This document shows positions 39,459-60,734 of a stretch of 64,000 nt of DNA, piece after piece. This DNA comes from an uncultured delta proteobacterium. GTDB lineage: Bacteria; Desulfobacterota; Desulfovibrionia; Desulfovibrionales; Desulfovibrionaceae. The stretch is from positions 1-64,000 of the forward strand of contig CAILNX010000047.1 in NCBI GenBank assembly GCA_903835685.1, given 5' to 3'. Each line of letters begins with the position of its first letter. Position 1 is the stretch's first letter. Made by a program: the position numbers and the translations under genes. The notes below the pieces were generated by a model. That model did not search any database. It had not been told where the DNA came from and worked only from the letters and a program-made list of their open reading frames with translations.

Positions 39459-39638
39459 ACTGCTCTCCCTGAAAAAAGAAATATAATTATTCATGAATGT
39501 TATATACACAGAGAGGCCGAATTCGATCTCTGGCCCCAACTCTAGAGCGAACCCGAAAAGATGGCAAGGGCCTCGGCCCTGTTCCTCATGGTTGACTTCC
39601 GGGCCGTCAGAGACCAAAAATGCCCCACGGGAAAATCC

Positions 39639-41168
39639 ATGGCTCAAGCAAACGACGCCCCCCTCATCGAACTGATTCGCGCCCGGGTCTCCCGCCCGGG
39701 CCGCACCCTGCTGCGCGACGTCACCTGGTCCCTGGCCCCTGGCCAGCACTGGGCCGTGCTGGGCGAGAACGGCGCGGGCAAGACCACCTTCCTGCGCCTG
39801 GTGCGCGGGGACATCTGGCCCGACGCTCCGGCCCCGGGCGGCCCGGCCCCCCGGGTCTACCGCCTGGAGGACGAAGCCCTGGAAAGCCCCATCGGCGCGC
39901 GGGAACGCCTGGGCCTGGTCAATCCCGAGTTGCGCGAACTCTACCGGCAGCGGGAATGGGATCTGCCGGTCCAGGAAGTGGTGGGGTCAGGCCTGACGGA
40001 CTCCCCTCGGGTTTACAGCCCCTTGGGTCCCGAAGGGTGCGAGGCCGTGGACGAGGCCCTGGAGCGGGCCAGGGCCTCCCATCTCAAAGGCCGAACCTTC
40101 CTGACCCTGTCCCAGGGCGAGGCCCTGCGGGTGCTCTTGGCCCGGGCCTTGGTCAACGCCCCCCGGGTCCTGTTCCTGGACGAGGCCTTTGACGGATTGG
40201 ACCGCACGGCCCGTCTGGGCCTGAACGCCCTGTGGGACGAACTGGCCGAATCCGGGGTATCCCTGGTGGCCGCCGCCCACCGGGCCGAGGACCTGCCCCT
40301 GGCCCTGACCCATGCCCTGTGGCTGCACGAAGGTCGGGTGGCCGCCCAGGGGCCGCGCCAGGACATCGTGCCCCCGTATTTCTCCCGGACGGACCAGATC
40401 GCGGCCCCTGGCCTCGTTCCGGCCCCTGCCCCAATCCCGGCGCCCATCCCAGCGCCGATCCCCCTGATCCAGGTGCGCCAGGCCAGCGTGGTCCTGGCCG
40501 GGCACACGGCCCTGCACGAGGTGGACTTCACCCTGTTGCCCGGCCAGCACTGGGCCATCCTGGGGGCCAACGGCGCGGGCAAGTCCACCCTGCTCAAGCT
40601 CCTGGCCCGGGATTTGCGGCCCGTGGCCGGGGAGGGCCGGGTGGAGTTCCGCCTGGCTGGCCGCGTCCTGCGCACCCTGTGGGAGGTCCGCCGGGTGGTG
40701 GGCCTGGTGTCCTGGGACCTCCAGGCTGATTTCGCCCCCGAAATCACGGCCCAGGAGGCGGTGGCCACGGGCATCACCGGCGCGCGCGCCCTGTTCGGCC
40801 CCCTGCCCGGCCCGCTCCTGTCCCGGGCCGCACGGACCATGGAGGCCATGGGGCTCTCCGCCCTGGCCCCCCGCCCCCTGGCCGAACTGTCCTACGGCCA
40901 GCGCCGGGCGGTGTTCATCTGCCGGGCCCTGGTGCGCGGCCCCAGGGTCCTGCTGCTGGACGAACCCCTGGGCGGTCTGGACGCCCGCGCCCGCCTGGCC
41001 ATGACCGCCCTGCTGCTCAAGGCCGTGGACCAGGGCACCCAGTTGGTAACCGTCACCCACCACCCAGAGGACATCCCTCCGGTAACCACCCATGTGCTGA
41101 CGCTCGAACAGGGCCGGGTGGTCCGGTCCCAGTCCCTGGCCATGGCCCCGGGAGGACTCCATGCGTAG
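39639..41168 (+). CDS. tandem-NBD ABC ATPase, ModF-like
   Basis: A 509-residue protein with two ABC ATPase domains in one chain and no membrane segment. First Walker A is GENGAGKTT and signature LSQGEALRVLLARA. Second is GANGAGKST with LSYGQRRAVFICRA and LLLDEPLGGLDA. A Pro/Ala/Ile linker (APAPIPAPIPAPIP) joins them. This architecture matches ModF/PhrA-type proteins, linked in part to molybdate handling, but no permease is nearby. The start is uncertain: the ATG at 39639 was preferred over 39561 on similarity to the family start. The end overlaps the histidine kinase start by eight bases. Confidence 0.75.
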   Translation: MAQANDAPLIELIRARVSRPGRTLLRDVTWSLAPGQHWAVLGENGAGKTTFLRLVRGDIWPDAPAPGGPAPRVYRLEDEALESPIGARERLGLVNPELRELYRQREWDLPVQEVVGSGLTDSPRVYSPLGPEGCEAVDEALERARASHLKGRTFLTLSQGEALRVLLARALVNAPRVLFLDEAFDGLDRTARLGLNALWDELAESGVSLVAAAHRAEDLPLALTHALWLHEGRVAAQGPRQDIVPPYFSRTDQIAAPGLVPAPAPIPAPIPAPIPLIQVRQASVVLAGHTALHEVDFTLLPGQHWAILGANGAGKSTLLKLLARDLRPVAGEGRVEFRLAGRVLRTLWEVRRVVGLVSWDLQADFAPEITAQEAVATGITGARALFGPLPGPLLSRAARTMEAMGLSALAPRPLAELSYGQRRAVFICRALVRGPRVLLLDEPLGGLDARARLAMTALLLKAVDQGTQLVTVTHHPEDIPPVTTHVLTLEQGRVVRSQSLAMAPGGLHA

Positions 41169-43830
41169 GCTTCCGGGTCTGGCCGCCGGAGTGCTCCTGG
41201 CCCTCGTTCTGACCCTCCACTTGGCCGCACCGGACCAGGCCCAGGCCGGGGAGAAGAAAAACATCTTCTACCTCAATTCCTACCACAACGGATATCTGTG
41301 GTCCGACCACATCTTAAAGGGCATCCAGGACCTGTTCAAAGAGCGCGACGACTACCTCATTGATCTGCAAGTCGAATACATGGACTCCAAGAAGTACTCG
41401 GGCGAGCCCATGATCGCCATGCTCCTGGAGCACTACCGCCAAAAATTCTCCCATACCCGCTTTGACGCCATCATCGTGTCCGACGACAACGCCTACAACT
41501 TCATGCTCCGCTACCAGTCCCAGCTCTTCCCGGGCGTGCCCCTGGTCTTCTGCGGGGTGAACGACTTTAGGCGCGGGCAGATCGCCGACCGCCCGAACAT
41601 CACCGGAGTGGTGGAGAACCCCAATTTCATCGAGACCATCCAGGTGGCCTTAAGCCTGCACCCGGACAAGACCAAGATGCTCATCATCGGCGACAAGTCC
41701 CTCACCGGCCGGGCCATCCAGAACCAGCTCCGGGCCGTGGCCCCGGCCTTTGCCGGACGCCTGGAGTTCGAATTCCAGGAGGACATGGGCCTGGACGAAC
41801 TCCTGGCCTGGCTGCCCACCCTGCCCGACGACCGCTTCCTGTTCATGGTCCCCATCTATTTGGACGCCCACCAGCAGTTCTACTCGGCCGACGAGGTCCT
41901 CTCCCTCATCCACCGCACCGTGAACATCCCCATCTACAGCGCCTGGGCCTTTCTGCTCGGCCACGGCATCGTGGGCGGCAAGCTGCACGACGGGGTCATG
42001 GAGGGACGCCTGGCGGCCCAGATGGCCCTGCGCATCCTGGGCGGGGAGCCCCCCACCACCATTCCGGTGAAAGAGATCTTCGACGATCCCTACATGTTCG
42101 ACTACAATGTCCTGGAGCAGTTCAAGATCAAGGAAAGCCAACTCCCGTCGGGGAGCATCCTGATCAACGAACCCTATAATTTCTACACCATCAACAAACA
42201 GATCTTCTGGATCATCATCACCAGTTTCGCGGTGTTGCTGTTCGTTGTGCTCCTGCTGGTCACCAACCATCTGCAAAAGAGAACAGTGGAAAAGGAGCTG
42301 CAGCAGTCCCAGCGCATGCTGCGCCTGGTTCTGGACACCATTCCCCTGCTGGTCTACTGGAAGGATCGGGAATTGCGCTACATGGGCGTGAACCGGGCCT
42401 TCCTGGACTTTTTCGGTTTCGCCACCGAGGAAGAGGTCTTGAGCAAGCCCGACGCGGTCATCCTGGAGCGGCCGGACTACGCCCGGCGCGCGGCCCAGGC
42501 CGACCAGATGGTCATGAACACCAACCGCCCCCTGTTGCGCGTGGAATGGGAATTCGAGAACATCCGGGGCTTGAGCCGGGTGCTGGAGATCGCCAAGGTC
42601 CCCTTGCACGACCGCGAAGGCCAGGTGGTGGGCATCTTGAGCACGGCCGAGGACGTGACCCAACGGGCCAGCCTGGAGCGCCAACTCCTGCAATCCCAGA
42701 AGATGGAGGCCATCGGTACCCTGGCCGGGGGCATCGCCCATGATTTCAACAACATTCTCACCTCCATCATCAATTCCATCGAACTGGCCCTCATGGACGG
42801 ACCCGAGGATGCGCTCATCACTGCGGACCTCACCCGGGCGCTCAAGGCCGGGCAGCGCGGCAGCCGCCTGGTCAAGCAGATCCTGGCTTTCAGCCGCCCC
42901 AGCCAGGCCGAGTTCCAGATCATCCGGCCGGCCGAGGCCGTGCACGAGGCCCTGGGGCTGATCAAGGCCTCCCTGCCCAAATACATTGAGGTCAAGGAAC
43001 ACATCGAGGCCGAGACCGCCTTTTGCCAGGCCGACCCCACCCAGTTGAACCAGATCGTCATGAATCTGTGCACCAACGCCTTCCAGGCCATGCGCGACCA
43101 GGGCGGGGAACTGGAAGTCACCCTGGTGGAGGAGGACCTGGACGCGGCCGGGGCCAAGCCCCTGAACTTAAGTCCCGGGCCGTACCTGCGCCTGTCCATC
43201 GCCGACACCGGCCCAGGCATCGCCCCGGAGATTCTGGACAAGATTTTCGATCCTTTTTTCACCACCAAGGGCAAGGCCGAGGGCACGGGCCTGGGCCTGG
43301 CCGTGGTCCTGGGCATCGTGCGCAACCACGGGGGCGGCATCCGCCTGGAAAGCGCGCCCTTTGAGCGCACGGCCTTTGACATCTTTCTGCCGCGCATCAC
43401 CCAGCCCCAGCCCGAGGGCGTGGCCGACCAGAACCAAGCCACCATGGGCCGGGGGAGCATCCTGTTCGTGGAGGACGACGAGGACCAGTTGGCCACTGCC
43501 CCCCGGATGCTCAGCCGCCTGGGCTACCAGGTCACGCCCTGCCGAAGCGCGCTCATGGCCATCGAGGCCCTGGAACGCGCGCCCGAGGCCTTTGACCTAG
43601 TGCTCACGGACTACGACATGCCCGAGATGGACGGCATCGAACTGGCCCACCGCCTGGAGACCCTGGTCCCGGGCCTGCCGGTCGTCCTGGTTTCCGGACG
43701 CCTGGGCGCGGTCCAGAACTGGCCGTCCGGAGGCAATATCCGCAAGCTGGTGCACAAGCCCTATGACCAGGCCGCCATGGCCCAAGCCATCCGCGAGGCG
43801 CTCGGCCCCGCCCGCCCGGAGGACGCATGA
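41161..43830 (+). CDS. hybrid sensor histidine kinase with periplasmic ABC-substrate-binding-like domain
   Basis: An 889-residue membrane kinase. A signal sequence (about 1-29) is followed by a periplasmic domain of about 300 residues resembling ABC substrate-binding proteins (IFYLNSYHNGYLWSDHILKG, DRPNITGVVENPNF). Then come a membrane helix (about 348-368), a PAS domain (about 385-500), a phosphoacceptor domain with His527 (GGIAHDFNN), an ATPase domain (DTGPGIAPEI, GTGLGLA) and a C-terminal receiver (DYDMPEMDG). The ATG follows GGGAGGACTCC and overlaps the upstream gene by eight bases. It sits directly before the NtrC-type regulator and should be its cognate kinase. The periplasmic domain may sense lactate or another organic acid. 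Confidence 0.88.
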   Translation: MRRLPGLAAGVLLALVLTLHLAAPDQAQAGEKKNIFYLNSYHNGYLWSDHILKGIQDLFKERDDYLIDLQVEYMDSKKYSGEPMIAMLLEHYRQKFSHTRFDAIIVSDDNAYNFMLRYQSQLFPGVPLVFCGVNDFRRGQIADRPNITGVVENPNFIETIQVALSLHPDKTKMLIIGDKSLTGRAIQNQLRAVAPAFAGRLEFEFQEDMGLDELLAWLPTLPDDRFLFMVPIYLDAHQQFYSADEVLSLIHRTVNIPIYSAWAFLLGHGIVGGKLHDGVMEGRLAAQMALRILGGEPPTTIPVKEIFDDPYMFDYNVLEQFKIKESQLPSGSILINEPYNFYTINKQIFWIIITSFAVLLFVVLLLVTNHLQKRTVEKELQQSQRMLRLVLDTIPLLVYWKDRELRYMGVNRAFLDFFGFATEEEVLSKPDAVILERPDYARRAAQADQMVMNTNRPLLRVEWEFENIRGLSRVLEIAKVPLHDREGQVVGILSTAEDVTQRASLERQLLQSQKMEAIGTLAGGIAHDFNNILTSIINSIELALMDGPEDALITADLTRALKAGQRGSRLVKQILAFSRPSQAEFQIIRPAEAVHEALGLIKASLPKYIEVKEHIEAETAFCQADPTQLNQIVMNLCTNAFQAMRDQGGELEVTLVEEDLDAAGAKPLNLSPGPYLRLSIADTGPGIAPEILDKIFDPFFTTKGKAEGTGLGLAVVLGIVRNHGGGIRLESAPFERTAFDIFLPRITQPQPEGVADQNQATMGRGSILFVEDDEDQLATAPRMLSRLGYQVTPCRSALMAIEALERAPEAFDLVLTDYDMPEMDGIELAHRLETLVPGLPVVLVSGRLGAVQNWPSGGNIRKLVHKPYDQAAMAQAIREALGPARPEDA

Positions 43831-45260
43831 GCAAGGTTCTGATCGTTGATGACGATGTGGAAGTCTGCGCCACCATGTGCCGCATCATGGAGCGCATGGG
43901 CCACGAATGCGCCCTGGCCCACACCCTGGAGCGGGGCCTGGCCCATCTCAAGGCCGGGGACTTCGACCTGGTTCTCCTGGACGTACGCCTGCCCGACGGC
44001 AACGGCCTGGACGCCCTGCCGGAAATGAAGAGCCTGCCCGCCTCCCCGGAAATCATCATCCTCACTGGCGAGGGCGGACCCGACGGCGCGGAGCTGGCCA
44101 TCCAGCGCGGGGTCTGGGACTATCTGGTCAAGCCCTCGCCCATCAAGCAGACCATGCTCAGCGTGGAGCGGGCCTTGAAATACCGGGAGGACAAGCGCTG
44201 CGACCGGGGTCCGGTGGCCCTGTCCCTGGAGAACGTGGTGGGCCGCGACCCCAAGATGAAACCCATCTTCGACCAGGTGGCCCAGGCCGCCGGGGCCCCG
44301 GCCAACGTGCTCATCACCGGCGAGACCGGCACGGGCAAGGAGCTTTTCGCCCGCACCATCCACTCAAACAGCCCCCGGGCGGACAAGCCCTTCATCGTGG
44401 TGGACTGCGCCTCGCTCCCGGAAACCCTGGTGGAGAGCATCCTCTTCGGCCACCGCAAAGGGGCCTTCACCGGCGCGGACAGCGATCGGCCCGGCCTGGT
44501 CAAGCTGGCCAACAGCGGGACCCTGTTCTTGGACGAGGTGGGCGAACTGCCCCTGCCCATGCAACGCACCTTTTTGCGCGTGCTCCAGGAGAAGACCTTC
44601 CGGCCCGTGGGCGCGAGCCAGGAGGTCCAGAGCGATTTCAGGCTCATCGCAGCCACCAACCGCAACCTGGACACCCTGGCCGGGCGCGGCGAATTCCGCC
44701 AGGACCTGCTCTTTCGCCTGAAGACCATTACCGTGGAACTGCCGCCCCTGCGCGAACGCCCCCAAGACATCAAGCCCCTAGCCCTGTTCCACGTTCACCG
44801 CCTGTGCGAGGAGTACGGACTGCCGCCCAAGGGCTTCGAGGCCGACTTCTTCGAGGTCCTGGCCGATTACGACTGGCCAGGGAACGTGCGCGAGCTGTTC
44901 AACATCCTGGAACGGGCCTTTGTGGCCTCGGGTCGGGAAAAGACCCTGTACGCCATGCACCTCCCCCAGGACGTGCGCATCAAGGTCACCAAGGCCAACC
45001 TGGAAAAGGGCCGCCAGAACGCGGCCAAGCCCCCGGTCCCGACCCTGTCCTTCCCCCTGGTCCAGGCCGAGTCCACGCCTGCGGACAGCCTGGGCTCGCT
45101 CAAGGCCTCCAAGGAACGCGTGGAACGGGAGTACCTGGCCCTCCTGGTCCGGGAAACCCAGGGGAACGTCGTGAAAATGATGGAGATTTCCGAACTGTCC
45201 CGCTCCCATCTGTACGCCCTGCTGAAAAAATACGAACTCTCGGCCGAAGACCAGGCCTGA
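43827..45260 (+). CDS. NtrC-family sigma54-dependent response regulator
   Basis: A 477-residue activator. The receiver has Asp52 (LLDVRLPDGNG). The AAA+ domain carries Walker A GETGTGKE (165-172), the sigma54-contacting loop GAFTGA (212-217), Walker B GTLFLDEVGELP, and the sensor region RELFNILERA. A Fis-type helix-turn-helix is near the end (GNVVKMMEISELSRSHLYALLKKY). Its start overlaps the kinase stop by four bases (ATGA). The lactate-oxidation genes that follow have sigma54 promoters and a shared palindrome, so they are its expected targets. In D. vulgaris the organic-acid oxidation genes are likewise preceded by a sigma54 regulator. Confidence 0.92.
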   Translation: MSKVLIVDDDVEVCATMCRIMERMGHECALAHTLERGLAHLKAGDFDLVLLDVRLPDGNGLDALPEMKSLPASPEIIILTGEGGPDGAELAIQRGVWDYLVKPSPIKQTMLSVERALKYREDKRCDRGPVALSLENVVGRDPKMKPIFDQVAQAAGAPANVLITGETGTGKELFARTIHSNSPRADKPFIVVDCASLPETLVESILFGHRKGAFTGADSDRPGLVKLANSGTLFLDEVGELPLPMQRTFLRVLQEKTFRPVGASQEVQSDFRLIAATNRNLDTLAGRGEFRQDLLFRLKTITVELPPLRERPQDIKPLALFHVHRLCEEYGLPPKGFEADFFEVLADYDWPGNVRELFNILERAFVASGREKTLYAMHLPQDVRIKVTKANLEKGRQNAAKPPVPTLSFPLVQAESTPADSLGSLKASKERVEREYLALLVRETQGNVVKMMEISELSRSHLYALLKKYELSAEDQA

Positions 45261-45271
45261 CCCGCTCCCCC

Positions 45272-45287
45272 GTCCGATATTTCGGAC
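45272..45287. promoter_or_regulatory. candidate activator site A (palindrome)
   Basis: GTCCGATATTTCGGAC is a 6-4-6 inverted repeat with perfect arms. It lies about 229 bases upstream of the GG of the glcD sigma54 promoter. Confidence 0.6.
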
Positions 45288-45405
45288 TGTCTCTGGATCC
45301 GCCAACACGTTCTCTTTGCAGGACTTTTACCTCAGGCAGGCCGCACCGTCAGGCCAACACACTTGAATCCCAGTCTTTTTGAATGAAGGGCTCGGCCCGG
45401 GTCCT

Positions 45406-45421
45406 GTCCAGAATATCAGAC
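45406..45421. promoter_or_regulatory. candidate activator site B (palindrome)
   Basis: GTCCAGAATATCAGAC: imperfect form of GTCC-N8-GGAC. On the reverse strand it matches site A at 13 of 16 positions. Its centre is about 95 bases upstream of the -24 GG of the glcD promoter. Confidence 0.55.
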
Positions 45422-45506
45422 AAAAAGGCGGGGTTCCGCAGGGAAAACGTTCGGTGTTTCCGCCGATCCCACTGGAATACTGCATTTTTTATCATTATTA
45501 CTTTCC

Positions 45507-45522
45507 TGGCACGACCCTTGCC
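45507..45522 (+). promoter_or_regulatory. sigma54 promoter of the glcD-glcF-lctP operon
   Basis: TGGCACG (45507-45513), four bases, TTGCC (45518-45522): a perfect match to the sigma54 consensus with correct -24/-12 spacing. Transcription is expected to start near 45533, about 70 bases before glcD. Confidence 0.9.
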
Positions 45523-45604
45523 TATGGAGGGCAACCGCTCACGCGCCCGGCCCCGGGTTTGGTGTGCGCCACATCCATCAACGAGGAACGCAGGAGACCC
45601 GCCT

Positions 45605-46987
45605 ATGATCAGCGATGCGCTCGTCAAGGAATTTCAAATCCTGGTCGGCAAGGACAATGTCCTGGAAAGTGAAGTCGACAAATACGCCTATTCCTATGAT
45701 TCCGCCGTGCTTGACCCCGTGGCCCCTGGCCTGGTGGTCCGCCCCACCACCAGCGAGGCCTTGGGCCGCGTGGTCAAGCTGTGCAACGACAACGCCCTGC
45801 CGCTGACCGTGCGCGGGGCCGGAACCAATTTGAGCGGGGGAACCATCCCGCGCAAGGGCGGGGTGGTGGTGCTCACCAACGCCTTGAGCCAGATACTGGA
45901 GATCAACGAGGCGGACATGTACGCCATTGTCCAGCCCGGGGTGATCACCGCCAAGTTCGCGGCCGCCGTGGCCGCCAAGGGCCTGTTCTATCCCCCGGAC
46001 CCGGGCAGCCAGGCCGTGTCCACCCTGGGCGGCAACGTGGCCGAGAACGCCGGAGGCCTGCGGGGCTTAAAATACGGCGTGACCAAGGACTACGTCATGG
46101 GCGTGGAGTTCTTTGACGTGGACGGCAACCTGGTCAAGTCCGGGTCGCGCACGGTCAAGTGCGTCACGGGCCTGAACCTGGCCCAGCTCATGGTCGGCTC
46201 CGAGGGCACCCTGGGGGTGTTCAACTCCATCATCTTGAAGCTCGTACCCCCGCCAGTGGCCCAGAAGGCCATGATGGCCATCTTCGACGACGTGAACAAG
46301 GCCTCGGAGACCGTGGCCGCCATCATCGCCAACAAGATCGTGCCCGCCACCCTGGAGTTCATGGACAACTTCACCATCCGTACGGTGGAGGACTTCAGCA
46401 AGGCCGGACTCCCGGTGGAGGCCAAGGCCCTTCTGCTCATCGAGGTGGACGGTCACCCGGTTCAGGTGGAGGAGGACGCGGCCAAGGTGGAGGCCCTGTG
46501 CAAGGAGCACGGCGCCCAGAGAATCCAGGTGGCCAAGAGCGCCGAAGAGCGCAACAAGGTATGGGAAGCCCGCCGGGCGGCCCTCTCGGCCCTGGCCCGG
46601 GTCAGCCCGACCACGGTGCTCGAGGACGCCACCGTGCCCCGCAGCAAGATTCCGGCCATGATCTCGGCCCTGGAGGCCATCGCCAAGAAGTACCAACTGA
46701 CCATCGGAACCTTCGGGCATGCGGGCGACGGCAACCTGCACCCCACCATCCTGACCGACCGCCGCAACCTGGAGGAATGGCACCGGGTGGAGGCGGCCGT
46801 GGACGAGATCTTCGACGTGGCCCTGTCCCTGGGCGGCACCCTCTCGGGCGAGCACGGCATCGGCATGGCCAAGTCCCGCTACATGGAAAAGGAATGCGGT
46901 ACCGGGACCATCCTCTTCTCGCGCAAGCTGAAGAAGGCCCTGGACCCCAAGTCCATTCTGAACCCCGGCAAGATTCTAGGAGACTAG
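45605..46987 (+). CDS. glcD: FAD-binding D-lactate/glycolate dehydrogenase subunit, GlcD-like
   Basis: A 460-residue FAD-linked oxidase of the VAO/GlcD family. The FAD-binding PP-loop region reads VVRPTTSEALGRVVKLC and TVRGAGTNLSGG; YPPDPGSQAVSTLGGNVAENAGG is also characteristic, and the C-terminal cap ends with GTLSGEHGIGMAKSRYM. It oxidises D-lactate (or glycolate) to the oxoacid. It pairs with the Fe-S protein encoded next, which takes its electrons. The ATG at 45605 has AGGAGA upstream. As I recall, D. vulgaris DVU3027 is the equivalent. Confidence 0.9.
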   Translation: MISDALVKEFQILVGKDNVLESEVDKYAYSYDSAVLDPVAPGLVVRPTTSEALGRVVKLCNDNALPLTVRGAGTNLSGGTIPRKGGVVVLTNALSQILEINEADMYAIVQPGVITAKFAAAVAAKGLFYPPDPGSQAVSTLGGNVAENAGGLRGLKYGVTKDYVMGVEFFDVDGNLVKSGSRTVKCVTGLNLAQLMVGSEGTLGVFNSIILKLVPPPVAQKAMMAIFDDVNKASETVAAIIANKIVPATLEFMDNFTIRTVEDFSKAGLPVEAKALLLIEVDGHPVQVEEDAAKVEALCKEHGAQRIQVAKSAEERNKVWEARRAALSALARVSPTTVLEDATVPRSKIPAMISALEAIAKKYQLTIGTFGHAGDGNLHPTILTDRRNLEEWHRVEAAVDEIFDVALSLGGTLSGEHGIGMAKSRYMEKECGTGTILFSRKLKKALDPKSILNPGKILGD

Positions 46988-46988
46988 C

Positions 46989-48293
46989 ATGGCCGATCCC
47001 AAAGAACTTCTGCGGCTCATGCGCGAGCTGGACGACCAGCTCGTGAGCTGCATGCGGTGCGGCATGTGCCAGGCGGTCTGCCCGGTCTATGCCGAGACCG
47101 GCCGGGAGACCGACGTGGCCCGGGGCAAGATCGCCCTTTTGGAAGGCCTGGCCCGGGACATGGTCAAGGACGCGGCGGGGGTCAAGAACCGCCTGGACAA
47201 ATGCCTGCTCTGCGGCTCCTGCGCGGCCAACTGCCCCAGTGGGGTCAAGGTCCTGGACATCTTCCTCAAGGCCCGGACCATCCTGGCCGGATACCTGGGC
47301 CTGTCCCCGGTGAAGAAGGCCATCTTCCAGGGCATGCTGGCCCATCCCCGGCTTTTCAACTCCATCCTGGGCCTGGCCGCCAAATTCCAGGGCATTTTCA
47401 CCAAGCCGGTGAACGAGATGCTCGGCTCCTCCTGCTCCCGGGTCCTGTCCGGGGCCATCGGGAACCGGCACTTCGCCACCCTGGCGGACAAGCCCCTGCG
47501 CACCCTGGTGGGCGCACTGAACACCCCGGCGGGCAAGAGCGGCCTCAAGGTGGCCTTTTACCCGGGCTGCCTGGCGGACAAGATATTCCCCCGGGTGGGC
47601 CTGGCCGTGATCAAGGTCTTAAACCACCACGGCGTGGGCATCTATCTGCCGGAAGTCCAGGCCTGCTGCGGCATCCCGGCCCTGGCCTCGGGCGACATGC
47701 AGACCTTCGAGGACCTGGTGGCGGCCAACGTGGCCTTTTACGGGGGCGCGGACTACGACGTGCTGGTCACGCCCTGCGCCACCTGCACCTCCACCATCAA
47801 GAAGGTCTGGCCGACCATGTCCACCGGCCTGGCCCCGGCCACCCGGGAAAAGGCCCTGGCCATGGCGGAAAAGGCCATGGACATCAACGCCTTTCTGGTG
47901 GATAAGCTGGGCGTGGCCCCGGTGGCCCCGTCCCAGGAAAGGGCCAAGGGCGCGCTGAAGATCACCTACCACGACCCCTGCCACCTGAAGAAGTCCCTGG
48001 GCGTGTCCACCCAGCCCCGCACGGTCCTGTCCCAGAACCCGGACTACACCCTGGTGGAGATGGCCGGTTGCGACTCCTGCTGCGGATGCGGCGGCAGTTT
48101 CAACCTCCAGCATTACGAGATGTCCAAGCATATCGGCATGGTCAAGAGGGATAACATCGCGGCCACGGGCGCTTCCGTGGTGGCCACGGGCTGCCCGGCC
48201 TGCATGCTCCAGATCACGGACATGCTCTCCCAGGCAGGAGACGACATCCGGGTCAAGCACCCGGTTGAACTCTACGCCGAGGCCTTGCCATAA
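46989..48293 (+). CDS. glcF: Fe-S electron-transfer subunit of lactate dehydrogenase, GlcF-like
   Basis: A 434-residue protein with two [4Fe-4S] motifs (Cys21/24/27/31 and Cys72/75/78/82) followed by two CCG domains (CCGIPALASGDM; CCGCGGSFNLQHYE). This is the GlcF/heterodisulfide-reductase-like arrangement. It accepts electrons from the GlcD flavin and passes them toward the membrane quinone pool or other carriers. It starts one base after the glcD stop. A GCCGGAA/TTCCGGC hairpin lies in the gap before lctP (48298-48313). Confidence 0.9.
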   Translation: MADPKELLRLMRELDDQLVSCMRCGMCQAVCPVYAETGRETDVARGKIALLEGLARDMVKDAAGVKNRLDKCLLCGSCAANCPSGVKVLDIFLKARTILAGYLGLSPVKKAIFQGMLAHPRLFNSILGLAAKFQGIFTKPVNEMLGSSCSRVLSGAIGNRHFATLADKPLRTLVGALNTPAGKSGLKVAFYPGCLADKIFPRVGLAVIKVLNHHGVGIYLPEVQACCGIPALASGDMQTFEDLVAANVAFYGGADYDVLVTPCATCTSTIKKVWPTMSTGLAPATREKALAMAEKAMDINAFLVDKLGVAPVAPSQERAKGALKITYHDPCHLKKSLGVSTQPRTVLSQNPDYTLVEMAGCDSCCGCGGSFNLQHYEMSKHIGMVKRDNIAATGASVVATGCPACMLQITDMLSQAGDDIRVKHPVELYAEALP

Positions 48294-48361
48294 CAAAGCC
48301 GGAACTTTCCGGCGGACTTGAAAAAAATACCCCGACAACCCAAAACCCCAAGGAGGAAAAG

Positions 48362-49999
48362 ATGGCCTGGGAACAAGTGTACAAACCCCTATCGGACAGT
48401 TACTTCGTGTCCGCGCTCGTGGCGGGCGTGCCGCTGTATATCCTGTTCTACATGTTGGCGGTGAAACGCGCGGCCGGACACAAGGCCGCCGCCCTGGCCA
48501 CCGGGGCCGCCGTGCTCCTGGCCATCCTGGCCTGGGGCATGCCCACCGGCCTGGCGGTGAACGCCACGATCTACGGCGCGGCCTTCGGCCTCTTCCCCAT
48601 TGTCTGGATCGTCATCACGGCCATCTGGATCTACAACATGACCGTTGAGTCCGGGGAGTTCGAGATCATCAAGAACTCGCTGGCGGCCATCACCGATGAC
48701 CGGCGGCTCCAGGCCATCTTCATCGCCTTTGCCTTCGGCTCCTTCATCGAGGGCACGGCCGGATTCGGCACCCCGGTGGCCATCACCGCAGCCATGCTGG
48801 TGGGCCTGGGCTTCAACCCGCTCTACGCCGCAGGCATCTGCCTCATCGCCAATACCGCGCCCGTGGCCTTCGGGGCCATCGGCATTCCCATTGTGGTCGC
48901 GGCCAACGTCACCGGCCTGGACATGATGAAGATCAGCCAGATCTGCGGCCGCCAGTTGCCGCTTCTGTCCGTCATCGTGCCCCTGTGGCTGTCCGTGACC
49001 ATGAGCGGCTGGAAGCGCTCCATGGAGATCCTTCCGGCCATCATCGTGGCCGGCGTGTGCTTCGCCTCCACCCAGTTCATTTTCTCCAACTTTCACGGCC
49101 CCTACCTGCCGGACATCATGTCCTCCATCGTGACCATCATCGGCCTGGGCGGCTTCCTCAAGGTCTGGCACCCCAAGAACATCTGGAAGTTCCCGGACGA
49201 GGCCGCCTTCAACGGCGAACGGACCAAGTCCAGCTACAACGCGGGCCAGATCGTCCGGGCCTGGATGCCTTACATCATCCTGGCCTTCATGGTGCTCCTG
49301 TGGGGCCTGGACCCAGTCAAGAAGTTCCTGGACTCCATCCTGCTCATCAAGATCGAATGGCCCGGCCTGCACAATGTGGTCTCCAAGATGGCCCCGGTCG
49401 TGGCCAAGCCCACCCCCTACGCGGCCGGCTACAACCTGAACCTGCTCTCGGCCGCGGGCACCGCCCTGCTGTTCTCGGGCATCCTGTCCGTGTTCATCAT
49501 GCCGGGCTACAGTTTCGGCAAGGCCACCGCCTGCTTCACCCGTACGGTCTACCAGCTCCGCTACCCCATCCTGACCATCTCCATGATTCTGGGCTTGGCC
49601 TACATCATGAACTTCTCGGGCATGAGCTCGAGCATGGGTCTGGCCTTCACGGCCACCGGGGCCTTCTTCCCCTTCTTCGCCCCGATCCTCGGCTGGCTTG
49701 GCGTGTTCCTGACCGGTTCGGACACCTCCTCCAACGCCCTGTTCGGCTCCTTGCAGAAGACCACGGCCCAGCAAATCGGGGTCAGCCCGGAACTCTGCGT
49801 GGCAGCCAACTCGTCGGGCGGCGTCACCGGCAAGATGATCTCCCCCCAGTCCATCTCCGTGGCCACCGCAGCCTCGAACATGGTGGGCCAGGAAGGCGAC
49901 ATCTTCCGCTTCACCTTGAAGCACTCCATCGCCATGGTCCTGGTCATCAGTTGCCTGACCCTGGCCCAGGCCTACACCCTGAAGTGGATGCTGCCGTAA
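48362..49999 (+). CDS. lctP: L-lactate permease
   Basis: A 545-residue transporter of the LctP/LldP family with about 12-14 membrane segments. The motif FGSFIEGTAGFGTPVAITAAM and the C-terminal GVFLTGSDTSSNALFGSLQK and ANSSGGVTGKMISPQSISVA are diagnostic. It imports lactate with protons or cations. Ribosome-binding site AAGGAGG is well placed. It is third in the sigma54-dependent operon and is followed by a strong terminator. Confidence 0.93.
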   Translation: MAWEQVYKPLSDSYFVSALVAGVPLYILFYMLAVKRAAGHKAAALATGAAVLLAILAWGMPTGLAVNATIYGAAFGLFPIVWIVITAIWIYNMTVESGEFEIIKNSLAAITDDRRLQAIFIAFAFGSFIEGTAGFGTPVAITAAMLVGLGFNPLYAAGICLIANTAPVAFGAIGIPIVVAANVTGLDMMKISQICGRQLPLLSVIVPLWLSVTMSGWKRSMEILPAIIVAGVCFASTQFIFSNFHGPYLPDIMSSIVTIIGLGGFLKVWHPKNIWKFPDEAAFNGERTKSSYNAGQIVRAWMPYIILAFMVLLWGLDPVKKFLDSILLIKIEWPGLHNVVSKMAPVVAKPTPYAAGYNLNLLSAAGTALLFSGILSVFIMPGYSFGKATACFTRTVYQLRYPILTISMILGLAYIMNFSGMSSSMGLAFTATGAFFPFFAPILGWLGVFLTGSDTSSNALFGSLQKTTAQQIGVSPELCVAANSSGGVTGKMISPQSISVATAASNMVGQEGDIFRFTLKHSIAMVLVISCLTLAQAYTLKWMLP

Positions 50000-50023
50000 A
50001 CGCGGCCTGATCCCTCCCCCCCT

Positions 50024-50060
50024 GGGCCGGACTCCGTCAAGGGGTCCGGCCCTTCCTTTT
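50024..50060 (+). terminator. rho-independent terminator after lctP
   Basis: GGGCCGGAC (50024-50032) pairs with GTCCGGCCC (50044-50052), followed by TTCCTTTT. It splits the lactate locus into two transcription units. Confidence 0.88.
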
Positions 50061-50104
50061 GCCCCTGGCGACCCTGGGACCTACCCCACTTTCCGCCCCA
50101 CTGT

Positions 50105-50120
50105 TGTGGCATACGCCACA
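50105..50120. promoter_or_regulatory. perfect palindrome upstream of the internal sigma54 promoter
   Basis: TGTGGC-ATAC-GCCACA, perfect six-base arms. Its centre lies about 121 bases before the GG of the sigma54 promoter at 50233, the usual distance for an enhancer-type activator site. It is unlike the GTCC-N8-GGAC sites, so a different activator is possible. A second palindrome, TGATACGTATCA, lies at 50171-50182. Confidence 0.45.
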
Positions 50121-50230
50121 CATTTTCCGCCCCCTCAACACGCCATCCTTTGATCCAGAGACACGTGATCTGATACGTATCATACCGAAATAACAGTTTA
50201 TCTCCATAATACCCCCAAACCTTCCAGGTC

Positions 50231-50246
50231 TTGGCACAAACCTTGC
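50231..50246 (+). promoter_or_regulatory. internal sigma54 promoter in the lctP-por gap
   Basis: TTGGCAC (50231-50237), five bases, TTGC (50243-50246): consensus with correct spacing (GG 50233-50234, GC 50245-50246). Predicted start near 50258. Downstream lie a short ORF and, 500 bases on, por. Confidence 0.75.
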
Positions 50247-50379
50247 CTTCTTTGACTTGTCCGCCCTGGGTCGCCGGGCCAGTGCGACCGCTCCCCAACC
50301 GATGCCGATGAGAACCCGGGGGCTTGGTCCAGGCATGAATGCTCCGCTTCCCACGGAACCCCTCGGAGGAGGGAGGTCC

Positions 50380-50556
50380 ATGAGCACATCCATTGGATGC
50401 CGAATTCTTCCACTTCAAGATTTTAGAGAAAATGAATACGCATGTGACGGCAGGGCCTGTCCGATTTTTCGGAAAATGACTCTGTTGTCCATAAAACCGG
50501 ACGGAGGAGCAGCGAGGAGGAGAAAGGACAAATCCATACCTTTATATTTAATTTAA
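50380..50556 (+). CDS. possible small protein downstream of a sigma54 promoter
   Basis: A 58-codon frame starting ATG directly after GGAGGAGGGAGGTCC, among the strongest ribosome-binding sequences in the window. The product begins MSTSIGCRILPLQDFRENEY, has three cysteines and a basic C-terminal part (ARRRKDKS). It follows the sigma54 promoter at 50231 by about 120 bases. Against it: two GTCC-N8 palindromes fall inside the frame, and no homologue is recognised. The transcript could instead be a small RNA or a long por leader. Confidence 0.3.
   Translation: MSTSIGCRILPLQDFRENEYACDGRACPIFRKMTLLSIKPDGGAARRRKDKSIPLYLI
50459..50474. promoter_or_regulatory. candidate activator site C
   Basis: GTCCGATTTTTCGGAA matches site A (45272) at 14 of 16 positions. 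Centre about 213 bases upstream of the por -24 element. Confidence 0.55.
50487..50502. promoter_or_regulatory. candidate activator site D
   Basis: GTCCATAAAACCGGAC keeps the outer GTCC-N8-GGAC arms; the centre diverges. About 185 bases upstream of the por -24 element. Confidence 0.45.
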
Positions 50557-50579
50557 GTGTGTTACGCTTGAGCCCCTCT

Positions 50580-50595
50580 GTCCTTTTCATCGGAC
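50580..50595. promoter_or_regulatory. candidate activator site E
   Basis: GTCCTTTTCATCGGAC keeps the GTCC-N8-GGAC arms. Its centre lies about 92 bases before the por -24 GG, nearly the same as site B before the glcD promoter (95). Confidence 0.5.
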
Positions 50596-50677
50596 GCCTG
50601 AAGATCTCCTGCTTGAGAGATCCAGAACCACGCCTGCAACCACTGGACAAATTTATTCTTTTACCATTGCTGAAAAA

Positions 50678-50692
50678 TGGCATACAAGTTGC
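50678..50692 (+). promoter_or_regulatory. sigma54 promoter of the por operon
   Basis: TGGCAT (50678-50683), five bases, TTGC (50689-50692) with exact -24/-12 spacing. Predicted start near 50704, 60 bases before por. Confidence 0.8.
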
Positions 50693-50700
50693 GAAGGTGA

Positions 50701-54441
<3,741 letters not shown>

Positions 54442-54556: not shown

Positions 54557-56665
54557 GTGGCGAACCATCTCTACGTCACCGGAACCGAGCCCAGAAGCGG
54601 CAAATCAGCCATCATCCTCGGAATCATGCAATTGCTCCTGCGCGACGTTCAAGGCGTGGCCTTCTTCCGGCCCATCATCAACACCACGGCCGAAGGGGTC
54701 AGAGACCACGACATCAACCTGGTTCTCTCCCATTTCAACCTGGACATCTCCTACAAGGAAACCTACTCCTACACCATCCAGGAAGCCCGGGAGATGATCA
54801 ACTCCGGCCAGCACGAGGCCTTGCTGGAAAAGATCCTCAACGACTTCAACAGTCTGCATGCCAATTACGATTTCGTGCTCTGCGAGGGAACGGATTTTCT
54901 GGGCACGGACCCGGCTTTCGAGTTCGACATCAACATCGACATCGCCTCCAATCTGGGCTGCCCGGTGCTGCTCATCGCCAACGGCCAGAAGAAGAGCAAG
55001 GACGAAATCGTGGCCTCCACCCACCTGACCGTGGAGAGCTTCGAGGAAAAAGGCCTGGACATCGTGGCCTGCATCATCAACCGGGTCGAGGCCGGAGACC
55101 ACACCGACATCATCGAGGCGCTCAAGAAAGAGCTGCACTGCCCGGACTGCTTTCCCATCTACGTGATCCCCGAGGAGTTGAGCCTGGGCAAGCCCACGGT
55201 GGCCGACGTGGTCAAATGGCTCAAGGCCACAGTGATCTACGGCAAGGAGCGGGTGGACAACCTGGTGGACAACTACGTCATCGCGGCCATGCAGGTGGGC
55301 AATTTCCTGAACTACATCGAACCCGGAAGCCTGGTCATCACCCCGGGCGACCGTTCGGACATCATCCTGGGCAGCCTGGCCTCCCGGCTCTCCACCACCT
55401 TTCCGGACGTGGCCGGCATCCTGCTCACCGGCGGGCTTCGCCCCTCGGCCAGCGTGCGCAAGCTCCTGGAAGGCTGGGTGGGCGCCCCGGTGCCGATCTT
55501 GAGCGTGGACGGCCACACCTACAAGACCACCCGGGTCCTCTATGACCTTTACGGCCGCATCGAACCCGAGGACCAGCGCAAGATCGACACCTCGCTTCGG
55601 GTTTTTGAGTCCAGCGTGAACATCGACGAACTGGGCAAGCGGCTGGTGGCCGCCTGTCCCACGGTGGTCACGCCCAAGATGTTCGAGTTCGGTCTCATCT
55701 TAAAGGCCAAGGCCAAGAAGCAGCGCATCGTACTGCCCGAGGGCACCGGGGAGCGCATCCTCAAGGCTGCGGACATCCTCCTGCGCCGGGGCGTGGCCGA
55801 CATCATCCTCCTGGGCTCCGTGGATATCATCCGCCGCCAGATCATCGACCTGGGCCTGCAACTGGACGAAGCCACCATCATCGAACCAGCCAAGTCCCCG
55901 GATTACGGCGACTACGTCCAGACCTACTACGAGTTGCGCAAGCACAAGGGCATCCGCGAGGAGGACGCCCGGGACCGCATGAGCGACCCGACCTATTTCG
56001 GGACCATGATGGTATACAAGGACCACGCCGACGGCATGGTCTCGGGCTCCGAGACCACCACGGCCCAGACCATCCGCCCGGCGCTCGAGTTCATCAAGAC
56101 CAAGCCCGGCTGCTCCCTGGTCTCCAGCGTGTTCTTCATGTGCTTAAAGGACCGGGTCCTGGTCTACGGCGACTGCGCGGTGAACCCCAACCCCACGGCC
56201 CAGGAACTGGCCGAGATCGCGCTCAGTTCCGCGCACACGGCCCGGGTCTTCGGCATTGAGCCGCGCGTGGCCATGCTCTCCTACTCCACGGGCGCCTCGG
56301 GCAAGGGCCAGGAAGTGGAAAAGGTCGTGGAAGCCACCCGCATCGCCCATGAACGCGCCCCGGAACTCCTGCTCGAAGGCCCGCTCCAGTACGACGCGGC
56401 CGTGGACATCGAGGTGGCCCGAGCCAAGATGCCGGACAGCAAGGTGGCCGGACGGGCCACGGTCTTCATCTTCCCGGACCTAAACACCGGCAACAACACC
56501 TACAAGGCCGTACAGCGCTCGGCCCAGGCCGTGGCCGTGGGCCCGGTGCTCCAGGGCTTGAAGAAGCCGGTCAACGACCTCTCCCGAGGCTGCACTGTCC
56601 CTGACATCGTGAACACCGTGGCCATCACCGCCATTCAGGCCCAAGCCGACAAGGAAGCTCAATGA
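54557..56665 (+). CDS. pta: phosphate acetyltransferase, long form
   Basis: A 702-residue Pta of the long type. The N-terminal P-loop BioD-like domain has YVTGTEPRSGKSAIILG, the middle is a DRTGG domain, and the C-terminal catalytic PTA domain (about residues 375-700) has KKQRIVLPEGTGERIL, VSGSETTTAQTIRPAL and VFIFPDLNTGNNTYKAVQR. It converts acetyl-CoA and phosphate into acetyl phosphate. The GTG start at 54557 has AAGGAG seven bases upstream. It overlaps the ackA start by four bases. Confidence 0.94.
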   Translation: MANHLYVTGTEPRSGKSAIILGIMQLLLRDVQGVAFFRPIINTTAEGVRDHDINLVLSHFNLDISYKETYSYTIQEAREMINSGQHEALLEKILNDFNSLHANYDFVLCEGTDFLGTDPAFEFDINIDIASNLGCPVLLIANGQKKSKDEIVASTHLTVESFEEKGLDIVACIINRVEAGDHTDIIEALKKELHCPDCFPIYVIPEELSLGKPTVADVVKWLKATVIYGKERVDNLVDNYVIAAMQVGNFLNYIEPGSLVITPGDRSDIILGSLASRLSTTFPDVAGILLTGGLRPSASVRKLLEGWVGAPVPILSVDGHTYKTTRVLYDLYGRIEPEDQRKIDTSLRVFESSVNIDELGKRLVAACPTVVTPKMFEFGLILKAKAKKQRIVLPEGTGERILKAADILLRRGVADIILLGSVDIIRRQIIDLGLQLDEATIIEPAKSPDYGDYVQTYYELRKHKGIREEDARDRMSDPTYFGTMMVYKDHADGMVSGSETTTAQTIRPALEFIKTKPGCSLVSSVFFMCLKDRVLVYGDCAVNPNPTAQELAEIALSSAHTARVFGIEPRVAMLSYSTGASGKGQEVEKVVEATRIAHERAPELLLEGPLQYDAAVDIEVARAKMPDSKVAGRATVFIFPDLNTGNNTYKAVQRSAQAVAVGPVLQGLKKPVNDLSRGCTVPDIVNTVAITAIQAQADKEAQ

Positions 56666-57882
56666 AAATTCTGGTCATCAACACCGGCAGCTCCTCGCTG
56701 AAATATCAGCTCTTCGAGATGGGCGCGGCCAAGCCGTATCCCCTGGCCTCGGGCCTGGCCGAGCGCATCGGCGACAGCCTGGGCATCCTGACCCACAAGA
56801 AGGACCCGGGCGAGGCCACGGAAAAGAAGCTGGTCAAGGAAACGCCCCTGCCCGACCATGCCACGGCCCTGCGCCTGGCCATGGACCTCATGACCGGCTC
56901 CGAGGCCGGGGTCATCAAGGACGCCTCGGAGATCGCGGCCGTGGGCCACCGGGTGGTGCACGGCGGGGAGCATTTCCACGACTCCACACTCATCACCGAT
57001 TCGGTCATCGAGGCCATCAAGCATTGCGTGCCCCTGGCCCCCCTGCACAATCCGCCCAACCTGACGGGCATTCTCACGGCCAAGGCCATCTTCGAGTCCA
57101 CGCCCCAGGTGGCCGTGTTCGACACCGCCTTCCACCAGAGCATGGCCCCCGAGGTCTACCTCTACGCCCTGCCGTACGAGTGCTACGCGGACAAGGGCGT
57201 GCGGCGCTACGGCTTCCACGGCACCTCGCACTGGTACGTGGCCAAGGAGGCCGCCGCCTTTCTGGGCAAGCCCCTGGCCGAGGTCAACCTCATCACCCTG
57301 CACCTGGGCAACGGGTCGAGCATCACGGCCGTGAAGAACGGCAAAAGCATGGACACCTCCATGGGGCTGACCCCCCTGGCCGGGGTCATCATGGGCACCC
57401 GCTGCGGGGACATCGACCCGGCCATCATCTTCTACCTGGCCCGGGAAAGCGGCCTGAGCACCGACCAGCTCGACGACATGCTGAACAAGAAGTCCGGATT
57501 CAAGGGCATCTGCGGCTCAAACGACCTGCGCGACATCCACAAGCGGGCCGACGAGGGCGACGCACGGTCCAAACTGGCCCTGGACATGTTCGCCTACCGC
57601 AACAAGAAGTACATCGGGTCCTACATGGCCGCCCTGGGCCGGGTGGACGCCATCGTGTTCACGGCCGGGATCGGCGAGAACGACACCCAGGCCCGGGCCG
57701 CCACCTGCGCCGGTCTGGAGAATATGGGCGTGGTCATGGATCCGGCCCTGAACGCCTCGCCCGAAAGGGGAATCCGCAGGATCAGCGCGGAGAAGAGCCC
57801 GGTGGCCGTTCTGGTGGCGCCCACCAACGAGGAGCTGGAGATCGCCAACCAGACCCTGGCAGTGCTCAAGAAGAAAGGCTGA
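56662..57882 (+). CDS. ackA: acetate kinase
   Basis: A 406-residue enzyme with family signatures: MKILVINTGSSSLKYQLFE, VGHRVVHGG, YGFHGTSHWYV, HLGNGSSITAVKNG, GTRCGDIDP and TAGIGENDTQAR. It makes ATP and acetate from acetyl phosphate, the substrate-level phosphorylation step of lactate oxidation. The start is translationally coupled to pta through ATGA. Confidence 0.95.
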   Translation: MKILVINTGSSSLKYQLFEMGAAKPYPLASGLAERIGDSLGILTHKKDPGEATEKKLVKETPLPDHATALRLAMDLMTGSEAGVIKDASEIAAVGHRVVHGGEHFHDSTLITDSVIEAIKHCVPLAPLHNPPNLTGILTAKAIFESTPQVAVFDTAFHQSMAPEVYLYALPYECYADKGVRRYGFHGTSHWYVAKEAAAFLGKPLAEVNLITLHLGNGSSITAVKNGKSMDTSMGLTPLAGVIMGTRCGDIDPAIIFYLARESGLSTDQLDDMLNKKSGFKGICGSNDLRDIHKRADEGDARSKLALDMFAYRNKKYIGSYMAALGRVDAIVFTAGIGENDTQARAATCAGLENMGVVMDPALNASPERGIRRISAEKSPVAVLVAPTNEELEIANQTLAVLKKKG

Positions 57883-57953
57883 ACGTCCCTAGATCTGTCC
57901 CGAACACACCGGGGGTCCGGCTCTTTGAGCCCCGGCCTATCCAAGGAGCGCGT

Positions 57954-58583
57954 ATGAAAGACAAGGAACAGCTCGTGGAGCTTTTCAAGCTCAAGGCCGA
58001 GGCGGTTTCCGCCGTGGTCACGCCGGTGACCTCCCTGCACCAGGCCTTTGAGTACGTGGTGGACATCTGCGAAAAGAAGGAGGCCTGCCAGCTCCTGGCC
58101 TCGGGTTGCGAAGAGGGCCTCTCGGACCCGGCCCAGGCCCTGTGCGAGACCAAGCAGGACAAGGTCATCGCCGCGCCCGGCCTGACCAAGAAGCTGTTCA
58201 AGGAACTGGAGACCGCCGGCAAGGGCAAGGGGTTCAAGTTCATTCAGGACGGCCTGCGCAATCACCTGGGCGGCATCGACATCGGGTTCACCGTGGTGGA
58301 CTACGGCCTTGCCGAGACCGGGACCCTGGTGCTGGCCTCCAAGAGCGAAGAGACCCGGCTGGCCACCATGGTCTGCGAGATCCACGTGGCCGTGCTGCCC
58401 CTGTCCAAACTCAAGGCCACCAGCTCCGACCTGGAGGATTTCCTCCTGGCCTCCTTCACCGCCACCCCGGACTACACGGCCTTCATCACCGGGGCCAGCC
58501 GCACGGCCGATATCGAGCGGGTCCTGGCCCTGGGCGTGCACGGCCCCCTCGAACTGCACATTCTGCTCTGGGAGGACAAATAA
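57954..58583 (+). CDS. lutC: lactate utilization protein LutC
   Basis: A 209-residue LUD-domain protein: IGFTVVDYGLAETGTLVLAS is the conserved LutC motif, followed by VAVLPLSKL and FITGASRTADIERVLALGVHGP. With LutA and LutB it forms an iron-sulfur L-lactate oxidation complex in other bacteria. I chose the ATG at 57954 because AAGGAGC lies just before. The next gene starts directly after its stop. Confidence 0.9.
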   Translation: MKDKEQLVELFKLKAEAVSAVVTPVTSLHQAFEYVVDICEKKEACQLLASGCEEGLSDPAQALCETKQDKVIAAPGLTKKLFKELETAGKGKGFKFIQDGLRNHLGGIDIGFTVVDYGLAETGTLVLASKSEETRLATMVCEIHVAVLPLSKLKATSSDLEDFLLASFTATPDYTAFITGASRTADIERVLALGVHGPLELHILLWEDK

Positions 58584-60734
58584 ATGCAGGACGCCAAGGA
58601 CCTGAACCAATACAAGACCGAACTGCGGGAATCCCTGAACAACGAGTTCCTGCGCTCGGCCATGGACAAGTTCGCTGTGGCCTACCCGGCCGCGCGCGCC
58701 CGGGCCTTCGGGGACATGGACGTGGCCGCTCTGGTGGCGGACGTGGCTCGGGCCAAGGACGTGTCCGTGGGCCAGATGGACGCCCTCTACGCCCAGTTCA
58801 AGGCCAAGGCCGAAGCGGCCGGGGCCACGGTGCATCTGGCTCGCACCGCCCATGAGGCCAACGAGATCATCGCCTCCATCGCCCGGGAGAACGGGGTCAA
58901 GCACATCGTCAAATCCAAGTCCATGACCGCGGAAGAGACCCACTTAAACCCCCATCTGGAAGCGGCGGGCTTGAATGTCACCGAGACGGACCTGGGCGAG
59001 TGGATCATCCAGTTGCGCGGGGAAGGCCCCTCGCACATGGTCATGCCCGCCATCCACCTCTCCCGCTACCAGGTGTCCGACCTGTTTTCCGACGTGACCA
59101 AGCAGAAACAGGACTCGGACATCCAGAAGCTGGTCAAGGTGGCCCGACGCGAGCTTCGGCCCAAGTTCGTCCAGGCCGACATGGGCGTGAGCGGGGCCAA
59201 TTTCGCCCTGGCCCAGACCGGCACCATCGGCATCGTGACCAACGAGGGCAACGGCCGACTGACCACCACCCTGCCCCGGGTGCACGTGGCCCTGCTCGGC
59301 CTGGAAAAGCTCACCCCCACCCTGCACGAGGCCCTGGGGGTCTTAAAAGTCCTGCCGCGCAACGCCACGGGCCAGGCCCTGACCTCCTACGTGACCTGGA
59401 TCACAGGCAACAACCAATGCGCGCCCGGGCCTGACGGCAAGAAGGTCATGCACATCGTGTTCCTGGACAACGGCCGCCGGGCCATGGCCAAGGACCCGAT
59501 CTTCTCCCAGGTGCTGCGCTGCGTGCGTTGCGGGGCCTGCGCCAACGTCTGCCCGGTCTACCGCATGGTGGGCGGGCACAAGTACGGCCACGTGTACATC
59601 GGGGCCATCGGGCTCATCCTGACCTACTTCTTCCACGGCCGGGAAAAGGCCAAGAACCTGGTGCAGAACTGCATCAACTGCGGGGCCTGCAAGGCTGTGT
59701 GCGCGGCCGGCATCGACCTGCCCCGGCTGATCAAGGAAGTCCACGCCCGCATCCAGGACGAGGAGGGCCACCCCCTCCAGAGCCAGCTTCTGGGCCTGGC
59801 CATGAAGAACCGGACCCTGTTCCACGGACTTTTGCGCGCGGCCAAGTTCGCCCAGCGGCCGGTCACCGGCGGCACGCCCTATCTGCGGCACCTGCCCATG
59901 ATCTTTGCCAAGGGCCAGGATTTCCGCGCCCTTCCGGCCATCGCCGCCAAGCCCTTCCGGGACCAGTGGGCCAAATTAAAGCCCCTGGTGCCCTCGCCCA
60001 AGCTCAAGGTGGCCCTGTTCTCCGGCTGCGTGCTGGACTTCGTGTACCCCGAGCAGATGGCTGCGGCGGTCAAGGTCCTGGCCGATCGTGGAGTGGCCGT
60101 GGACTTCCCCATGGGCCAGTCCTGCTGCGGCCTGCCCGTGGAGATGATGGGCGAGCGTATCGCGGCCCGGGACGTGGCCGAACAGAACGTCACGGCCATC
60201 GACGCCTCGGCCTACGACTACATCCTGACCCTGTGCGCCTCCTGCGCCTCGCACTTGAAGCACGCCTATCCCCGGCTCCTGAAGGACACGCCCAGCGTGG
60301 CCTACAATGCCCAGCAGTTCTCGGATCGGGTCATCGACTTCAGCTCCTTTGTGCGCGACGTGCTCAAAGTCGAGGCCCAGGACTTCATGCCCGGCGGCCC
60401 CAAGACCGCCTACCACGCCCCCTGCCACCTGTGCCGGGGCCTGGACGTGCACGAAGCGCCCCGGGCCCTCATCGGGATCGGCGGCATGGACTACGTCCAG
60501 GCCGAGGAGGAAGAGGTCTGCTGCGGATTCGGCGGCACCTTCTCCATGAAGTTCCCGGAGGTCTCGGCCGAAATCCTGGGCAAGAAGCTCAGCAACGTGG
60601 AGGCCACCGGGGCCGAGCAACTGGTCACGGACTGCCCGGGCTGCGTCATGCAGCTGCGCGGCGGGGCCGAGACCCGGGGCATGCGTCTGGATGTCCTGCA
60701 CCTGGCCGAGGCCCTGGCCGCCCGGCTGAAGTAA
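58584..60734 (+). CDS. fused LutB-LutA L-lactate dehydrogenase iron-sulfur protein
   Basis: A 716-residue protein joining a LutB-type LUD domain (about 60-300; GVKHIVKSKSMTAEE, GANFALAQTGTIGIVTNEGNGR), two [4Fe-4S] motifs (Cys313/316/319/323 and Cys363/366/369/373) and a C-terminal LutA-like region with two CCG domains (SGCVLDFVYPE, CCGLPVE; CCGFGGTFSMKFPEVS). Separate lutA is not present, so both roles appear to reside in one chain. It should oxidise L-lactate, with LutC as partner. The same 700-residue arrangement is, as I recall, present in D. vulgaris (DVU3033). Confidence 0.88.
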   Translation: MQDAKDLNQYKTELRESLNNEFLRSAMDKFAVAYPAARARAFGDMDVAALVADVARAKDVSVGQMDALYAQFKAKAEAAGATVHLARTAHEANEIIASIARENGVKHIVKSKSMTAEETHLNPHLEAAGLNVTETDLGEWIIQLRGEGPSHMVMPAIHLSRYQVSDLFSDVTKQKQDSDIQKLVKVARRELRPKFVQADMGVSGANFALAQTGTIGIVTNEGNGRLTTTLPRVHVALLGLEKLTPTLHEALGVLKVLPRNATGQALTSYVTWITGNNQCAPGPDGKKVMHIVFLDNGRRAMAKDPIFSQVLRCVRCGACANVCPVYRMVGGHKYGHVYIGAIGLILTYFFHGREKAKNLVQNCINCGACKAVCAAGIDLPRLIKEVHARIQDEEGHPLQSQLLGLAMKNRTLFHGLLRAAKFAQRPVTGGTPYLRHLPMIFAKGQDFRALPAIAAKPFRDQWAKLKPLVPSPKLKVALFSGCVLDFVYPEQMAAAVKVLADRGVAVDFPMGQSCCGLPVEMMGERIAARDVAEQNVTAIDASAYDYILTLCASCASHLKHAYPRLLKDTPSVAYNAQQFSDRVIDFSSFVRDVLKVEAQDFMPGGPKTAYHAPCHLCRGLDVHEAPRALIGIGGMDYVQAEEEEVCCGFGGTFSMKFPEVSAEILGKKLSNVEATGAEQLVTDCPGCVMQLRGGAETRGMRLDVLHLAEALAARLK

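Follow-up and report, generated by a model that had tools for sequence, protein, structure and literature searches.

Palindromic sites ahead of two sigma54 promoters in a Desulfovibrionaceae lactate locus as very probable binding sites of the adjacent regulator LurR

Five 16-bp palindromes ahead of two sigma54 promoters in the lactate locus of an uncultured delta proteobacterium (family Desulfovibrionaceae) are very probably binding sites of LurR, the NtrC-type regulator encoded directly upstream (Table 1; positions are those of the window, i.e., the whole 64,000-nucleotide stretch of DNA that was analyzed). LurR corresponds to DVU3023 of D. vulgaris Hildenborough, in which lurSR and the lactate genes share one locus (DVU3025-3033), and its 16-bp motif has been validated there by gel shift and is conserved upstream of Desulfovibrionales lactate operons (PMC3333781, PMC6456213). 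The regulator, the motif, the sigma54 promoter, and the conservation across the Desulfovibrionales were already published in 2011 and 2019, and this is not a new motif; since both locus and motif match the published LurR system, our finding is a correct rediscovery. Sites, promoters, orthology, conservation, and spacing were computed here, binding and activation are known from D. vulgaris, and we infer LurR binding and the response to lactate in this organism from orthology.

Table 1. Features of the lactate locus and of the chemoreceptor region (matrix ranks are within the window)
Feature	Position	Strand	Description
lurS orthologue	41161..43830	+	Hybrid sensor kinase; Pfam, D. vulgaris lurSR gene order (PMC6456213)
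lurR orthologue	43827..45260	+	Receiver, sigma54 AAA+ (GAFTGA), Fis-type HTH SELSRSHLYALLKK
LurR site A (distal, predicted)	45272..45287	.	GTCCGATATTTCGGAC; 228 bp to -24 GG; matrix 24.7, rank 1
LurR site B (proximal, predicted)	45406..45421	.	GTCCAGAATATCAGAC; 94 bp to -24 GG; matrix 18.8, rank 3
Sigma54 promoter of dld operon	45506..45522	+	CTGGCACGACCCTTGCC; best -24/-12 match on window + strand
dld/glcD	45605..46987	+	FAD-linked D-lactate dehydrogenase subunit; Pfam FAD_binding_4/FAD-oxidase_C
glcF-type gene	46989..48293	+	Fe-S (CCG) subunit; Pfam
llp	48362..49999	+	Lactate permease; Pfam Lactate_perm E=2.5e-176
Intrinsic terminator-like stem	50024..50052	+	After llp, 12 pairs; divides two units
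LurR site C (predicted)	50459..50474	.	GTCCGATTTTTCGGAA; 212 bp to -24 GG; matrix 19.1, rank 2
LurR site D (predicted)	50487..50502	.	GTCCATAAAACCGGAC; 184 bp to -24 GG; matrix 16.4, rank 4
LurR site E (proximal, predicted)	50580..50595	.	GTCCTTTTCATCGGAC; 91 bp to -24 GG; matrix 10.4, rank 6
Sigma54 promoter of por	50677..50693	+	ATGGCATACAAGTTGCG; fifth-best -24/-12 match on window + strand
por	50764..54441	+	Pyruvate:ferredoxin oxidoreductase; Pfam
pta	54557..56665	+	Phosphotransacetylase; Pfam
ack	56662..57882	+	Acetate kinase; Pfam
lldG	~57950-58583		Just before lldH
lldH	58584..60734	+	LUD-domain Fe-S L-lactate dehydrogenase subunit; Pfam LUD_dom
Chemoreceptor region	C53:67447-69390 (locus L190:2948-4891)		PAS + MCP-signal gene behind malic enzyme gene

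All five 16-mers of the original prediction were recovered at their coordinates, two before dld and three before por. The arms are perfect in three of them, and sites B and C carry one right-arm mismatch each, which in site C falls on the last base. Site E has the weakest core of the five and is weak by matrix score, yet its position is conserved. The terminator-like stem divides the pathway into two units, dld-glcF-llp and por-pta-ack-lldGH. Each is preceded by predicted LurR sites and a sigma54 promoter of its own, so that the genes for uptake and oxidation would be switched on together. The two-promoter arrangement is not unique to this genome, as four genomes of genus cluster g2 carry por apart from the lurSR-dld operon, with LurR sites of its own and the same type of promoter (TTTGGCACACAAGTTGC). 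No LurR sites were found at the other Lactate_perm gene of the genome (contig C30), and no second site-bearing lactate permease was detected. Close to the lactate locus there is also a gene of the FMN-dependent alpha-hydroxyacid dehydrogenase family (38439-39749, minus strand), which has no LurR sites.

The regulator pair adjoins the first gap, with the NtrC-type gene placed where it had been predicted. LurS, encoded directly upstream of LurR, comprises a periplasmic-like N-terminus, a transmembrane segment, and PAS, HisKA, HATPase, and receiver domains, with a single PAS region found here where the D. vulgaris protein is reported to have three. Its N-terminal half (41161-42200) gave a very weak match to PF04392 (E=0.089) and may resemble a periplasmic substrate-binding protein. 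LurR is 59-65% identical to thirteen aligned orthologues and contains GAFTGA and SRSHLYALLKK; Pfam detected the receiver and AAA+ domains and gave no HTH match, and the C-terminal HTH was read off the alignment.

We compared the gap that runs from lurR to the nearest downstream lactate gene in the window and 40 relatives (41 gaps). These orthologous gaps conserve the motif, with 35 exact GTCC-N8-GGAC arm pairs and 80 at no more than one mismatch, whereas exact pairs numbered 0-2 when the spacer was set to 4-7 or 9-13, and likewise 0-2 with seven alternative arm combinations. A symmetric matrix (94 sites, 20.4 bits), trained on the gaps of the 40 other genomes with the window left out, placed the five sites at ranks 1, 2, 3, 4, and 6 of the window and scored the published D. 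vulgaris sites (ATCCGCTTTTTCAGAC, GTCCGCTTTTCAAGAC, GTCCACTTTTTCAGAC, GTCTGCAATGTCGGAC, GTCCATTTTTTCAGAC; PMC3333781, PMC6456213) at 15.4-18.7. Both matrix and spacing derive from related genomes, and these observations are thus not fully independent. A stricter pattern, searched for in 21 complete genomes, occurred at 0-5 places per genome (control 0-2), and many of these places belong to the lurR locus. Another LurR-like match in the window (GTCCTGGTTTCCGGAC, 43684-43699, matrix 13.5) falls within the lurS coding region, at its 3' end, and we regard it as unproven. In G053 and G111, sites about 400 bp before lurR would fall within lurS, while in G106, G074, and G107 LurR-type sites (e.g., G106:C1:3571941) precede lurR by about 2.7-2.9 kb and would be just upstream of lurS, which suggests autoregulation in these genera; no comparable site was found ahead of lurS in the window.

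The published binding data bear directly on which protein occupies the sites. In D. vulgaris, sites bound in EMSA include GTCCACTTTTTCAGAC and GTCTGCAATGTCGGAC, and deletion of lurR lowers lactate-gene expression by RT-qPCR (PMC6456213), although the effect on por is modest (~2-fold), which counts against LurR as the main explanation. The nitrite-stress regulator NrfR (DVU0621) of the same species has a very similar 16-bp consensus and also binds LurR's sites in vitro (PMC6456213). LurR may therefore share its sites, and by analogy NrfR is a possible second occupant here. A further step would be to assign the sites mainly to another NtrC-type regulator, either NrfR-like or a LurR paralogue, given that the D. 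vulgaris por sites are bound by LurR and NrfR alike and that the genome encodes paralogues with 50% and 48% identity to LurR. We consider this very unlikely. The recognition helix common to LurR orthologues reads SRSH or SKSH, while the two closest LurR paralogues of this genome have SRPR or SPSR instead, and around their genes motif-like sites score no higher than 4.3. Moreover, the motif follows the lurR-operon gaps throughout the order, and genomes with both lurSR and nrfSR are few (Rajeev et al.). The attribution to the adjacent regulator made in the original prediction is therefore upheld by the published LurR motif, by its retention in orthologous gaps, and by the preserved promoter spacing.

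This spacing was measured from the site center to the first G of the -24 GG of the sigma54 promoters, which were identified by consensus downstream of the sites. For sites B and E it agreed within a base with the predicted 95 and 92. Across 51 promoter regions drawn from the family and the order, the proximal site lies 91-97 bp from the -24 GG in 33 and 80-85 bp in nine, a descriptive result because these regions share ancestry. The two clusters are about one turn apart. When all distances were put through a Rayleigh-type scan, no period near 10.5 bp stood out, so general helical phasing of the sites relative to the -24 element is unsupported. We found no such spacing figures in the text of the D. 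vulgaris LurR papers.

The same geometry bears on whether the palindromes act as RNA hairpins or terminators of the intergenic regions rather than as protein sites. Site A is indeed self-complementary and lies 12 bases past the lurR stop, but terminator prediction returned none of the five 16-mers; a single weak call at 50446-50461 does no more than overlap site C, and the strong stem after llp is a separate element. In addition, the sites stand at a set distance from the -24 element and precede the expected transcription start, and Rfam returned no credible match, only weak and implausible eukaryotic ones. A hairpin function is thus very improbable.

A third strong sigma54-like element (TTGGCACAAACCTTGCC, 50231-50247), which ranks second in the window, is located between llp and por and was omitted from the original prediction. 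No LurR site occurs at the usual distance from it, and the surrounding stretch showed no real conservation among 88 family genomes. Palindromes upstream of this element include TGTGGC-N4-GCCACA (~50106) and TGATACGTATCA (~50170). Downstream, a 58-aa ORF (50380-50556) with a plausible ribosome-binding sequence overlaps sites C and D; it had no Pfam match and is possibly a remnant gene or a leader.

The motif had been predicted to occur only in the two gaps, which is incorrect in that form. The window contains 11 exact copies of GTCC-N8-GGAC, eight of them outside the gaps and with GC-richer cores, and the whole genome has 362 versus 175 for the reversed control pattern. By contrast with these common arms, the AT-core pattern GTCYNNWWWWNNRGAC is rare, at eight places genome-wide (reversed control, 4) by pattern and sequence-model searches, and it clusters here: the eight places are sites A, B, and D, two on contig 53 before a chemoreceptor gene, and three single, background-like ones. 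Requiring the AT-rich core thus confers specificity and removes hundreds of false matches. Compared with 2000 dinucleotide shuffles, the two gaps contained three exact and six one-mismatch arm pairs (0.02 and 0.65 expected) and five matrix matches scoring ≥10 (0.02 in shuffles). We give practically no credence to the palindromes being chance products of a GC-rich genome, since, although the bare arms are about twice as common as the reversed control, the AT-core form is concentrated in these gaps, shuffled gaps fail to yield the sites, and arms and spacer are conserved over the 41 orthologous gaps, which we count as refuting chance.

We further examined the only other strong site pair in the genome, GTCCGAAATATCGGAC at 67447 and GTCTGATATTTTGGAC at 67566 on contig C53, of which the former equals the window sites in strength by a sequence-only model applied to the genome. 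The pair lies 94 bp before a sigma54-like promoter (TTGGCAACATTTGTGCA) of the chemoreceptor gene. Chemoreceptor homologues in G106, G074, and G107 (46-47% identity) are likewise preceded by a pair of LurR-type sites and a sigma54-like element (distances 109-117 bp). No LurR-type sites were found upstream of the closest homologues (G090 and G117, 56%), and the neighborhood showed no synteny among homologues. These patterns suggest that LurR control of the chemoreceptor gene is likely and that the gene is probably an unreported member of the LurR regulon, the comparison being with the text of the D. vulgaris LurR papers, which names no such target. On balance, we lean towards a model in which LurR would couple lactate metabolism to behavior by activating an MCP gene (with PAS in this genome) from paired sites and a sigma54-like promoter, in this genome and at least three relatives (genus clusters g5 and g16), together with a proximal site at 91-97 (or 80-85) bp from the -24 across the order.

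Taken together, lactate-dependent signaling by LurS would lead to phosphorylation of LurR, whose dimers would occupy 16-bp sites (GTCYG-AT-rich core-CRGAC), two or three of them, located some 80-260 bp ahead of a sigma54 promoter; the AAA+ (GAFTGA) domain of LurR would promote open-complex formation. Paired palindromes at this distance from a -24/-12 promoter are typical of NtrC-type sigma54 enhancers in general, whereas the motif sequence here is LurR-specific. The locus resembles the D. vulgaris LurR regulon in its adjacent lurSR, its 16-bp GTCY-AT core-RGAC motif in two or three copies, its sigma54 promoter, and its lactate operon genes (por/llp/dld/pta/ack/lldGH). Unlike in D. vulgaris, dld-glcF-llp comes first here and por opens a second unit with its own predicted LurR sites and promoter, and strong sites also occur at a chemoreceptor gene. 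As the motif was already published, our finding mainly confirms its conservation. Beyond this, the matrix and its AT-core rule can be applied genome-wide, the distance from activator site to promoter has been measured, there is evidence that the pathway may come as two co-regulated units, and lactate sensing is predicted to be linked to chemotaxis. These sulfate reducers have lactate oxidation as their central catabolic route, and its switch therefore matters for corrosion, bioremediation, and syntrophy.
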